From Peltaster fructicola (taxonomy: Eukaryota; Ascomycota; Dothideomycetes), in assembly GCA_001592805.2 (NCBI GenBank), contig CP051142.1, positions 372,001 through 436,000 on the forward strand: a stretch of DNA of 64,000 nucleotides, in the 5' to 3' direction. The stretch's first letter is position 1, and every line of letters starts with the position of its first letter. This document shows positions 2,671 to 29,622 of this stretch, in pieces. The notes beneath the pieces were generated by a model. It had not been told where the DNA came from, ran no database searches, and saw only the letters and a list, made by a program, of their open reading frames with translations. A program made the translations under genes and the position numbers.

Positions 2671-5277
2671 ATGGCAGTCAGGTCGTTGCTTGTAGCTTCC
2701 CTGTTGTCGAGTGTGGGCTTGACAGCTGCACGGCAACAGCGCGTGCGTAGAGGAGGTGACTACGACATATATCTTAACACATCGAGGGTGCCGAGCCATA
2801 CCGCACAACCATCGAGCACATACTATCCGGAGTTCTCCTTCGCGCCCGAGACGACCACAACAACACCGAGTCCAGCGGCCACCTTCTCGTCACCACTCGC
2901 CGCAAGTACACTCGCTTCATCCACATATCGCCATGGACCACTTCCTGTCGGACCAGGTTCGCGGCCATTCCCTTCATCACCAACGGGAACCGCAGCTTCT
3001 GGCATATATCCGCATTCTGGGTTCAGCTTCAGACCGACGACGACATCTGTCGACGACGATTGTGGCGGCGCCACTCTGAACGTTCCCAATGCTACGCTGG
3101 ACTGGTGGTGGACCTCGACAGCGTACGATGCGGTGTCACAACTGTCTTTTCAACACAACACGGAAGGGCGCGTTACTGGCTGGACCATCACTCATGTCGG
3201 CACTGGACTGGACGCATCTACAGCCATCAGCGCCGACGCATGTGATCCGACACCATGGTCTTACACCTACCTAGACTCTGACACAAACCAAACGGAAACC
3301 TTTTCCGCCTACGAGTGCTCACAGGTACCGGTCAGTGTAGCACCAGCCACGAGTGCAGTCACAATACGCGCATGGGTGCCAGTATCGAAGACTTCTGGAA
3401 CGAGCTTCAATGATGTGCCAGTTCGCCAGACCGCTCCACCGCCTCCCAAAGCAACAGTCGCCGGCGTCAATGCGACCTTTGGCGCCGACTCACCATTTGT
3501 CTATTTCAGCGCATACCAGATCGTGTCCGGTAATCGCACCACGAAAGCAAACGGCGACGAGATCTGCAATTATGTTACGAAGACCTATAATATGAGCAAG
3601 CCGTATGCTTTCTCTTATGCTGACCAAGACCCAGCATCTTCGACAATCTACCCAACGATCCTGTCTGGAGATTTGGATCCATGGCTTCCAACAGCTATCG
3701 GGCGGCCTCAAGTCGTTCTGGGATCTTTCACTGCAATACCCACAGTGGTCGTCGTTGTCGACGAGATCTATGAGATTGGTTTCGAAGCTGCACTTGCTGG
3801 CACCATGGTCACGGCATCGCAGTTGGAAGTCCCAACAGCAAAGTTGCCGGCTGGTGTCAGCGCGTCTACAAGCGAAGACATCGGCGCGCTGTACACCTCT
3901 CTCACGGCTACCGCGCACATCGAGGTGACCAACAAATTCTTGTTGGTGCCAGACGTGACTAGTACAGTACCAATTCCTGTGGTCCAGAGCTTGCAACAAG
4001 CCACCTCGTCTCCAACTCCGAGTCCGAGCGCAAGCCCAGCAGGCGTGGCCACCGTAGAGAGCAACAACGGCATCACAAAGCCTGCTGATGCACTTGACGT
4101 GCTCACTCAAGCTCTCGGTCCCTTCATCGTGCAAGGCCTTGGGGCAAATCCGACGCCAGCTCAGACGATGGATATAGCTGGCGCGACAGCCACGGTCTCG
4201 ACCGTCTCTGGCTTTGTCGTGGATGGTCAGACGGCTGTGGTAGGTGGTCCGGCCATCACAGCTGACGGTAAAGTCATCTCGGTGCCAGCAGTGGGCGACT
4301 CGATCGTCGTTGGCGGTAGCACAGTCGTTAGACCTGCAGCAGGCGAAACTATTTCGGCCAATGGTGTGCAAATCACTGAGGCGCCTGCTACGGTGTTTGC
4401 AGTGGCAGGACAGACTCTCCTTCCAGGTGGTTCAGCGATAACAATATCCCAGACACCAGTGGCTCTTGCACCAGGTGGTGGAGCTGTGATTATTGGATCG
4501 TCCACATCGATATTGCAGACCCGTGTCATCACTGTGGGCACGCAAACCGTCACCGCAAATGCAGCAACGCAGTTTGTGTTTGGACCTGGCCAGACACTGA
4601 CCCCAGGAGGAACATTGATTGTCGGTGGCACGACAGTCAGTCTTGCCAATGGTGCAAGTGTTGTTGTCGTCAACGGACAGACGAGTACCATCACGGTCCA
4701 GGCCAAGACAACAGCAGGAGCGCTTCTCACGATCGACGGGCAGACCATCACACCCACCGCTGGAGTCTATGTGATATATGGTCAGACCTTGAGTTCTGGA
4801 GGCGCAATCACCTTCACCGGATCCAGTGGCCGTGAGACCGTATCTCTGGACAAATCAGGAACTGTAATGGTGGATATCGTGTCGGGCAAGAGCACGACAA
4901 CAACACTGCAGGGTGCATCGCCTGTGCTGACCATTGGAGGGCAAAGTTTCACAGCACAAGCTGGATCGACTTATATCATTAATGGACAGACACTCACTCC
5001 AGGGGGAGTGCAGACCGTGGTTGTCGGCAGTACGACGTACGTTCTCAGTCTGTCAGCGACACCTACAATTGTCGAGATCGACCAGATCAATGCCAGCGGT
5101 CGAACCACGGCGACGAGTTACGAGACCTTGATCACGGCATCAGCCACGCCTGGCAGTGGGACGAAGGATAGTTCGCCGACAACCACAGCCCTCGTGGGCA
5201 AAGCTGCATCGACGGGTTTCCAGCTGATATCGATCGTTGTAGCTAGTAGCGCGTTGGTCTTCGCCATCTGGCTGTGA
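2671..5277 (+). CDS. GPI-anchored cell-surface protein with beta-rich GQT repeats
   Basis: An intronless 868-residue protein. It begins with a signal peptide (residues 1-20, ending SSVGLTA) and ends with a GPI-type signal: small residues near SGTKDSSPT, a spacer and a hydrophobic tail ending in AIWL. Residues 30-120 are rich in Pro, Ser and Thr and probably O-glycosylated. Residues 125-430 contain a less repetitive part with cysteines and several N-glycosylation sites. From about 490 to 800 there are degenerate repeats of roughly 35-50 residues around GQTLTPGG-type cores, seen as GQTLLPGG, GQTLTPGG, GQTITPTAG, GQTLSSGG and GQTLTPGG, which look like a beta-solenoid. Proteins of this style are common surface proteins of Dothideomycetes and Sordariomycetes. 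The exact function is unknown; a cell-wall or adhesive role is inference. Confidence 0.85.
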   Translation: MAVRSLLVASLLSSVGLTAARQQRVRRGGDYDIYLNTSRVPSHTAQPSSTYYPEFSFAPETTTTTPSPAATFSSPLAASTLASSTYRHGPLPVGPGSRPFPSSPTGTAASGIYPHSGFSFRPTTTSVDDDCGGATLNVPNATLDWWWTSTAYDAVSQLSFQHNTEGRVTGWTITHVGTGLDASTAISADACDPTPWSYTYLDSDTNQTETFSAYECSQVPVSVAPATSAVTIRAWVPVSKTSGTSFNDVPVRQTAPPPPKATVAGVNATFGADSPFVYFSAYQIVSGNRTTKANGDEICNYVTKTYNMSKPYAFSYADQDPASSTIYPTILSGDLDPWLPTAIGRPQVVLGSFTAIPTVVVVVDEIYEIGFEAALAGTMVTASQLEVPTAKLPAGVSASTSEDIGALYTSLTATAHIEVTNKFLLVPDVTSTVPIPVVQSLQQATSSPTPSPSASPAGVATVESNNGITKPADALDVLTQALGPFIVQGLGANPTPAQTMDIAGATATVSTVSGFVVDGQTAVVGGPAITADGKVISVPAVGDSIVVGGSTVVRPAAGETISANGVQITEAPATVFAVAGQTLLPGGSAITISQTPVALAPGGGAVIIGSSTSILQTRVITVGTQTVTANAATQFVFGPGQTLTPGGTLIVGGTTVSLANGASVVVVNGQTSTITVQAKTTAGALLTIDGQTITPTAGVYVIYGQTLSSGGAITFTGSSGRETVSLDKSGTVMVDIVSGKSTTTTLQGASPVLTIGGQSFTAQAGSTYIINGQTLTPGGVQTVVVGSTTYVLSLSATPTIVEIDQINASGRTTATSYETLITASATPGSGTKDSSPTTTALVGKAASTGFQLISIVVASSALVFAIWL

Positions 5278-27580: not shown

Positions 27581-27961
27581 AGTACTCTAATGATCCAACA
27601 CTTGTAGCCATGATGCTCTTCCGCTCGTGTCAGCCTTCGTCCAGGTTGATCGTTGTTCACGGATCATATGTCTACGCACAGACCCTTTGCGTTATCACTT
27701 CACTCCACGAGCAGACTCAACACTCCTTCGTCTTCACGAAGCCTAAGGGCAAGACAACCCCTCGGATCTCCACAAATAAGTGCCAGCATTGGTGAGCATA
27801 TGGGAGAGCTCGTCTCATGTCTCCACCTGCCCCACCACAGTGGAAGCTCAAGACCATGATATAAGTTACTCAACCCTTCTCTACCATTCTTCATAAGTCC
27901 TCGACCTTCCTACCTGTCCTACACTTCAATCACCATTACCAGATACAGCTCAGCACTCACG
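27581..27961. other. THI5 promoter region
   Basis: A 381-base upstream region of the thiamine gene. The last 100 bases are pyrimidine-rich, consistent with transcription start and leader. No further motif is recognised. Confidence 0.4.
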
Positions 27962-27984
27962 GTATGGCACGCCAGCCTGAAGAC

Positions 27985-28086
27985 ATGAAACCTCTGCCAC
28001 AAATGGCTCTTGATCAAGGTAATACGATAAGTATGCATGACGGGTGTTCGTTAGGAGGAATCAATGTGTATGCACAATACCATTGA
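27985..28086 (+). other. upstream ORF in the THI5 leader
   Basis: Two in-frame ATGs (27985 and 28003) open a 33-codon frame ending at 28086 in unspliced RNA, inside the aptamer. Such upstream frames repress the main frame in TPP-controlled fungal transcripts. The peptide itself need not matter. Confidence 0.55.
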
Positions 28087-28154
28087 GACCGACTCTCGAT
28101 CTGAGATAATACCGTTTGAACCTGATCGGGACAATGCCTGCGCAGGGAACATGC
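28035..28154 (+). promoter_or_regulatory. TPP riboswitch (THI-box aptamer)
   Basis: All conserved parts of the thiamine pyrophosphate aptamer are present in order. The closing P1 stem is GCATG (28035-28039) with CATGC (28150-28154). ACGGGTG forms one side of P2, followed by a long variable P3 arm closed by CAATG/CATTG. CTGAGATAATACCG (28101-28114) is the pyrimidine-binding core. TGAACCTGATC (28117-28127), ACAATGCC and GCGCAGGGA (28140-28148) form P4, P5 and the pyrophosphate-binding loop. It lies in the 5'-leader intron of THI5, the arrangement known for Neurospora NMT1, where TPP controls 5' splice-site choice. Confidence 0.95.
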
Positions 28155-28203
28155 CTTCCTCCATCCTACCCCCTTGAGCACTTCTAACTCGAGCAGTATC
28201 ACC

Positions 28204-29424
28204 ATGTCTACCGACAAGATTACCTTCTTGACGAACTGGTGAATAACAATTTAGTTACAAGCTGTACAGTACTGAGCAATGTCAGGCACGCAACGCCATA
28301 CCATGCACCATTGTACCTTGCCCAAGCCAAAGGCTTCTTCAAGGATGAAGGTATCAAGGTCGCTCTCCTTGAGCCAAACGACCCAAGTGTTGGTCCATCG
28401 ATGACATTGCCTTCAATCTACTAAATCGTATAGGATGTCACCGAGATCATTGGCACGGGAAAGGTTGACCTTGGCTACAAGGCTATGATCCACACCCTTG
28501 CTGTACGCCTATTTGCACTATAGATGTGGCTCTACTCACCAATGCTAGGCCAAAGCACGCGACTTCCCAGTCCTCTCGATCGGCTCACTTCTCGACGAAC
28601 CCTTCACCGGTGTGGTATACCTCAAAGACAGCGGTATCACCACCGACTTCCGCACACTTAAGGGAAAGAGAATCGGCTATGTTGGAGAGTTTGGCAAGGT
28701 GAGTTCAAGGATAATGTTACATACTCTTGCTGACCGGGTAGATCCAAATCGATGAGTTGACCTCGCACTATGGTATGTCGCCGTCCGACTACACCGCGAT
28801 TCGTTGCGGTATGAACGTCTCCAAGGCGATCATCAAGGGCGAGATTGATGCTGGTATCGGTCTTGAGAACGTCCAGATGGTCGAGCTCGCTGAATGGTTG
28901 TCCTCGCAAGGTCGCCCAAAGACTGATGTCCAGATGTTGCGTATTGATGAGCTCGCTGAGCTCGGATGCTGCTGCTTCTGCTCGATTCTGTACATCGGTA
29001 ACGAGAAGTTCATCTCTGAGAACCCGGAGAAGGTTCGCTCCTTCATGCGTGCAGTCAAGAAGGCAACAGACTTTGTCTTGTCGGAGCCAGAGCAGGCCTG
29101 GGCCGAGTATGTTGACTTCAAGCCAGTCATGGGCACCGAGCTCAACCGCAAGATCTTCGAGCGCAGCTTTGCTTACTTCTCCAAGGACTTGCAGAACGTT
29201 GCCCGTGACTGGGCCAAGGTCACCAAGTACGGTAAGAGGCTGGGTGTCTTGGACGAGTCCTTCGAGCCAAACTACACCAACGAGTTCTTGGAGTGGACTC
29301 TTGAGCACGACCAGGCCGACCCACCGGCGACCAGAAGCGTATGGTCGATCTTCAGCAGGAGATTGCCGAGCAGGGCGGCTTCAAGCGTCTCGATGTCCGA
29401 CGTGCTGTGGGTGCAGCAGCATAA
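28204..29424 (+). CDS. THI5/NMT1: HMP-P synthase, thiamine pyrimidine biosynthesis
   Basis: Makes the hydroxymethylpyrimidine phosphate half of thiamine from PLP and histidine; the protein is its own histidine donor. The exons are 28204-28238, 28286-28388, 28434-28502, 28549-28698 and from 28742. The active-site segment GYKAMIH holds the conserved Lys and His, and the iron-linked CCCFC motif is in [15 protein letters not shown]. All residues up to EHDQADP fit the family. At about 29318-29324 (GACCCACCGG) one base, probably a C, is missing. The family C-terminus ([20 protein letters not shown]) continues in the next frame to TAA at 29422-29424, giving 346 residues. As written, the frame instead runs to 29446 with an unrelated tail. 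This most likely reflects a sequence error. Expression is controlled by the TPP riboswitch just upstream. Confidence 0.95.
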
Positions 29425-29622
29425 ATGCATCTATCCAAGGATGTAGCTGAGATGGCTATTCTACAGATTAAGTTTACACCGACCCTTGTCGTTCTTTACA
29501 AGCTTGGTCTGTCAGAGAAGAGATCTGTTGCCACAGTATTCTTATGCATACGTTTCCGCCAAATGTGCAAGTGCTTCCCGTGTGTCTGTTTTCTCGTACT
29601 GCCCAATGATCGACCAGATTGT

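Follow-up and report, generated by a model that had tools for sequence, protein, structure and literature searches.

The leader of THI5 in Peltaster fructicola very probably carries a TPP riboswitch of Type I (the fungal NMT1 type) that controls the choice of the 5' splice site. Judged by its sequence, it is clearly a real and well-formed Type I switch, the mechanism being known from Neurospora and the example being new. Under the proposed mechanism, at low TPP the core strand of the aptamer (28120-28131) would pair with positions 28008-28020 and hide the proximal 5' splice site; the intron 27962-28196 would then be removed together with all three upstream ATGs, and THI5 would be translated. 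In the presence of TPP, the core strand would be absorbed into the P4/P5 part of the aptamer and the proximal donor released; splicing from 28019 to 28196 would retain an upstream reading frame that passes over the THI5 start codon in a different frame, and less THI5 would be made. A vitamin B1 sensor most likely decides the splice site here, shutting THI5 off when the vitamin is plentiful. We infer that these donors are used, that TPP would shift the ratio between them, and that the aptamer is captured co-transcriptionally. Positions refer to the window, that is, the whole 64-kb stretch of DNA analysed; the features of the THI5 locus lie on its plus strand, and published accounts given by PMC number are cited from excerpts of the papers.

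The THI5 gene and its TPP aptamer

The THI5/NMT1 (HMP-P synthase) gene at 28204-29424 was identified by matches of its spliced protein, with five coding exons obtained from the exon joins (28204-28238, 28286-28388, 28434-28502, 28549-28698, and 28742 to about 29424). The first 313 residues match PF09084 with 255.5 bits and the yeast THI5 of solved structure (4h65) with an E-value of 1.3e-147. Over the same residues, fungal NMT1 proteins are 85-91% identical among the best 120 of 1,359 matches, and N. crassa NMT-1, among the matches listed, is 86% identical.

Two irregularities were observed in the coding part. The frame changes in its last portion (29300-29440), where the residues resembling the THI5 C-terminus presumably sit in a different frame from the upstream exon; this represents either a small assembly error or an altered C-terminus. 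If the join giving NDPSDVTEI is right, the donor of intron 2 (28389-28433) would be AGT|GTTGGT, which looks unusual against the donor consensus.

When the entire window was searched with cmscan, RF00059 at 28030-28166 was the sole match at the gathering threshold, scoring 59.7 bits (E 3.4e-9) against a gathering score of 54.3 bits and covering all 105 model positions (1-105). The Infernal alignment gives P1 as GCAUG 28035-28039 with CAUGC 28150-28154, P2 as 28040-28043 with 28112-28115, P4 as 28121-28124 with 28143-28146 and P5 as 28127-28130 with 28137-28140. The conserved core is intact, all four of these helices are there, and a long P3 arm lies between 28046 and 28101; a lengthened P3 has been reported from many fungal TPP aptamers (PMC5882874). 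A preceding sequence-only reading had proposed a complete aptamer at 28035-28154, and the ends of P1 fall at exactly these coordinates; the Infernal/Rfam check that it suggested is the score given above. By its sequence, then, 28030-28166 is a TPP riboswitch aptamer, for which binding of TPP is predicted. Its core strand ACCTGATCGGGA (28120-28131) makes up the 5' strand of P4, J4-5 and P5 and is the partner of the donor in the free state.

Splice signals and upstream reading frames

A TATA-like element, TATAAG, lies at 27860-27865, and transcription would begin a few tens of bases 3' of it. The distal 5' splice site is CACG|GTATGG, with GTATGG at 27962-27967, and the proximal one is CAAG|GTAATA, whose intron would start at 28019, within the anti-aptamer strand 28008-28020. 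Both predicted leader introns, of 235 nt from the distal and 178 nt from the proximal donor, share the 3' splice site CAG at 28194-28196, with a likely branch site TTCTAAC at 28182-28188. The sequence confirms GTATGG at 27962, the CAG ending at 28196 and the main ATG at 28204.

Translation of the isoforms shows how the two donors would differ. Proximal splicing retains the stretch 27964-28018 of an upstream frame that runs from 27964 to 28231 and shares 28204-28231 with the main ORF in a different frame, just as the overlap had been claimed. Of the in-frame ATGs of this frame, those at 27985 and 28003 had already been noticed; their total is not two, since a third, at 27964, lies inside the distal donor GTATGG. 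The distal donor was expected to remove both of the noticed ATGs, and the distal isoform indeed contains no upstream ATG at all from 27900 to the THI5 ATG at 28204. The layout of a Type I switch is thus found in the sequence signals: the donors 27962 and 28019 flank the uORF, the acceptor at 28196 lies 3' of the aptamer, and the aptamer would be placed within a 5'-leader intron upstream of the thiamine gene THI5.

Predicted pairing between the proximal donor and the aptamer core

The strand GATCAAGGT at 28012-28020 pairs with ACCTGATC at 28120-28127, and the duplex extends upstream, where UCUUGAUC (28008-28015) pairs with GAUCGGGA (28124-28131). In total, the anti-aptamer strand 28008-28020 forms 12 pairs with 28120-28131, including two G-U, with one bulged A and an energy of -14.8 kcal/mol; the sequence-only reading had described eight pairs and one bulged A for 28012-28020/28120-28127, so the pairing and the bulge stand and the length does not, the helix being four pairs longer. 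Among the five GT sites in 27881-28035, the next-best duplex with the core has -7.9. Elsewhere in the window, -14.8 or better is reached with the core at 106 of 7,793 other GT sites, and at 95 of 7,793 if the G or T of the donor must also take part in the pairing. Duplex energy alone therefore amounts to about 1-in-80 per site, and its comparison with every GT of the window is a weak test, suggestive only.

Ensemble tests are stronger evidence than duplex energy for the donor-core pairing in THI5. As controls we used dinucleotide shuffles of the leader, the remaining sequence being kept. In the THI5 leader, the G and T of the donor are jointly paired at 0.93, a value that none of 300 shuffles reached, and the observed number of pairs between the donor 9-mer and the core (4.36) was reached by 7 of 500; compared with the 500-shuffle version, the 300-shuffle version used a narrower core and leader ends that differ slightly.

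In the free ensemble of 27940-28210, the donor-core pairs have probabilities of 0.92-0.99, but 0.49 for A28017-U28123, which alternates with a pairing of A28016 (the bulge alternative). Over five segments the free-state values are 0.88-1.0, and about 0.5 for A28017-U28123. The aptamer state was represented by imposing all helices of the Infernal alignment, in place of P1 alone, on the five segments, and all donor-core pairs then dropped to 0.0. The donor-core helix and the aptamer are thus shown in silico to be mutually exclusive folds, which bears out, within the folding model, the earlier proposal that folding of the aptamer makes the core unavailable to the donor. The mean unpaired probability of the proximal donor rises only from 0.32 in the free state to 0.36-0.39 in the aptamer state of the five segments; in the folding model, such slight unpairing on release speaks against the simplest form of the mechanism, other partners probably being taken up by the donor.

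The energies of the aptamer fold point in addition to the timing of TPP action. For the aptamer alone (28035-28154), the aptamer fold lies 3.5 kcal/mol above the ensemble of that segment, and the cost is 3.6, 9.0 and 12.8 kcal/mol for segments starting at 28022, 28005 and 27962, respectively. The donor strand appears as the competitor of the aptamer because the cost is 3.6 from 28022 versus 9.0 from 28005. With the leader included, the aptamer state lies 8.6-12.8 kcal/mol above the free ensemble, which exceeds what micromolar TPP would pay at equilibrium, given its affinities; therefore TPP probably acts during transcription and not by simple equilibrium. In the growing transcript, the donor-core helix (0.98) is already formed once 28127 has been made. 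The ON state looks like the default in these models, and TPP would need to bind co-transcriptionally. For N. crassa NMT1, a co-transcriptional proposal reportedly comes from Gong et al. in 2019. Such a proposal is cited in the excerpted text of a review (PMC7404189).

One can suggest that a working aptamer acts mainly on splicing as a whole, through retention of the intron or a block at its 3' end, and that the complementarity between donor and core is of secondary importance. The thiamine response persists in the single-donor riboswitch intron of Ogataea polymorpha DUR31, and unspliced RNA rises in Candida parapsilosis (PMC5997356); the unspliced leader of P. fructicola also has several further upstream frames, the first of which ends at 28086, and an energy of -14.8 is not rare by itself. 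We nevertheless consider this unlikely, since between the two states the donor-core helix drops from a probability close to 1 to zero and the intron end changes little: the mean unpaired probability is 0.86 (free) and 0.89 (aptamer) for the branch site in 27940-28210 and 0.85 and 0.81 in 27900-28260, and for the 3' splice site it moves from 0.21 to 0.23 and from 0.23 to 0.37 in the same segments. The rarity with which shuffled leaders match the donor-core pairing also argues for control through the donor. Branch-site repression is mentioned for nmt1 (PMC7404189), whereas the likely branch site of P. fructicola is not part of the aptamer and stays largely unpaired in either predicted state.

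Comparison with known fungal switches

The TPP riboswitch of N. crassa NMT1/THI5 was reportedly described by Cheah et al. in 2007. According to the excerpted accounts of this system (NCU09345; PMC5997356, PMC7404189, PMC10907184), it too combines an aptamer in a leader intron, a THI5/NMT1 orthologue and two donors; likewise, a part of its aptamer pairs with the second donor without TPP, and uORFs are retained with TPP. That the P. fructicola leader follows the Neurospora NMT1 logic, as the sequence-only reading held, is supported: every anatomical element is present in the sequence, the folds are exclusive in silico, and the published descriptions match. Sequence and spacing differ from N. crassa NMT1 and are P. 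fructicola's own.

The leader resembles Type I of Mukherjee et al. 2018 (PMC5882874) and the TPPsw-NMT1 group (PMC11683625) in location, in the uORF between S1 and S2, in an acceptor just 5' of the coding exon and in the target gene. As far as the excerpted descriptions go, nothing was found that separates it from Type I/TPPsw-NMT1. A TPP aptamer also governs donor choice in the Type II long-distance switch of N. crassa NCU01977, where, within a long coding intron, the first donor is promoted by a distal element that is the pairing partner of the P1' strand (PMC5882874). In P. fructicola, by contrast, the P4/P5 strand would mask the second donor, and this in the leader. The long-distance switch of NCU01977 is said to be the work of Li and Breaker in 2013.

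The genome of P. fructicola (18.99 Mb, among the smallest known for filamentous fungi) comprises five chromosomes of 2.77-4.89 Mb with an N50 of 3.68 Mb, has a median intron of 50 bp, and comes with described RNA-seq (PMC7181583). The THI5 leader adds a case in which the fungal NMT1 switch can be followed base by base, with leader introns of 178-235 nt kept despite this compact genome. The literature searched, with most subscription papers and supplements outside it, contained no riboswitch report for Peltaster fructicola and no paper uniting riboswitch, Dothideomycetes and thiamine. In viral contigs, a search for THI5 relatives by part of exon 5 gave six pattern stretches and no relatives, and the fungal core pattern gave no hits.

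Other TPP loci and the shared donor word

The genome search covered 18,987,130 bases in 5 contigs with E up to 10, and 49 of 695 first-look candidates were scored. At least four TPP matches are present, two of them above the gathering score: THI5 (59.7 bits) and a PF02133 nucleobase/thiamine permease on C3 (54.8 bits). The sub-threshold matches belong to an amino-acid permease (PF13520) at C5:476522-476652 (minus strand of L004, 1501-1631; 31.9 bits) and to THI4 on C1, 245 bases before the Thi4 match (24.9 bits).

In three of the four leaders (THI5, THI4 and the nucleobase/thiamine permease), the proximal donor reads GRTCAAG|GTA. As the candidate proximal donor upstream of its weak TPP match, the THI4 leader has the same 10-mer as THI5, GATCAAGGTA, and the C3 permease leader has GGTCAAGGTA; each of these two words is then followed by its own aptamer with the core ACTTGATC. 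The C5 leader, as read by eye, is without the word. GRTCAAGGTA occurs at 156 places in the 19 Mb genome, counting both strands, and simple arithmetic predicts about 4e-4 occurrences in the 99-base THI4 leader and about 2e-4 in the 46-base permease leader, although the surprise is smaller once the donor AAG|GTA is taken as given. We tentatively suppose, at somewhat less than even chances, that a donor-embedded anti-aptamer word, GRTCAAG|GTA, is common to three unlinked TPP-controlled genes, the invariant core (ACCUGAUC or ACUUGAUC) being antisense to an ordinary AG|GU donor; with GATC-like bases in front of it, such a donor would become subject to TPP. As the word recurs in three genes, this idea of the core as a splice-site antisense is testable with a single compensatory reporter set.

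Folding of the other leaders is less uniform. The probability of the donor-core helix in THI4 ranges from 0.18 to 0.70 over the four segments tried; in the permease, the THI5-type register reaches at most 0.10, and, as we read the MFE folds, two of the three segments have a shifted register. Donor pairing does not exceed that of the leader shuffles either in THI4 (204 of 500; 188 of 300 with the narrower core) or in the C3 permease (200 of 500; 25 of 300), and in the 300-shuffle version the best GT of both leaders is another GT and not the word donor. For the C5 gene the counts are 15 of 500, for another donor, and 219 of 300 in the narrower-core version.

These results bear on chance complementarity, under which the ACCU of the TPP core naturally complements a generic AG|GU donor, and almost every donor in the vicinity would therefore seem paired. 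Indeed, -9.2 kcal/mol or better with the core is found at 298 of 532 other AGGT sites in the window, and the THI4 and permease leaders do not rise above their shuffles. This reading is very unlikely for THI5 itself, because the observed -14.8 is reached at only 35 of the 532 AGGT sites, the ensemble pairing is seldom matched by shuffled leaders, and THI4 has the GATC extension too. The least probable alternative is a relic, an aptamer that scores yet no longer switches in a compact genome: two of the other three TPP matches fall below the gathering threshold and equilibrium folding does not favour the aptamer, but the THI5 aptamer exceeds the curated cut-off with its core intact, the low THI4 score seems due to its P3 arm, and the leader introns persist at 178-235 nt against the genome median of 50 bp (PMC7181583). 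Control of donor choice by a Type I switch remains the preferred reading for THI5.

Observations on the THI4, amino-acid permease and C3 permease leaders

The THI4 leader (C1:4255210-4255487; L005 1323-1600) shows, in order, a distal donor TCG|GTGCGT, an ATG, the proximal donor GATCAAG|GTATCT and the aptamer. By eye, the latter has P1 as AGCACGA/TCGTTGCT, P2 as GCCG/CGGC and an apparently long P3 arm (CCAACATC...GATGTTGG); the Rfam score of 24.9 bits is seemingly low because this arm is left out of the match. On the 5' side of the distal donor there is one more ATG (L005 1268), close to what may be an earlier acceptor.

The C5 match seems, by eye, to lie within the first coding intron of the amino-acid permease, with a stop codon soon after the distal donor; the layout is that of Type III, and the core is one base short of the consensus. 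The excerpt of PMC5882874 gives the amino-acid permease TPP class as absent from Ascomycota, and that of PMC11683625 reports the group there, with one member in Hortaea werneckii. The view of an amino-acid-permease switch as new for Ascomycota was dropped, the group being already there according to PMC11683625. The excerpt of PMC11683625 also remarks that certain Dothideomycetes have a nucleoside group in place of the urea group, and the P. fructicola set of THI4, NMT1, nucleoside-type and amino-acid-type genes agrees with this remark.

In the leader of the C3 permease (L003 4811-5060), the donors GTGAGT and GGTCAAG|GTATCC are situated around ATGCAGCCT. A deposited P. fructicola protein of 502 residues has exactly the sequence of this permease, and many of the homologues listed have longer N-termini than this product. 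Isoforms were enumerated for 5 donors and 4 acceptors. If the CTCTAG acceptor is used, the proximal isoform gains an N-terminal extension in frame from the ATG at 4811 (L003), and the distal isoform does not; an inverted logic considered for this gene was undone by the other acceptors and by a further upstream ATG at 4738 (L003).
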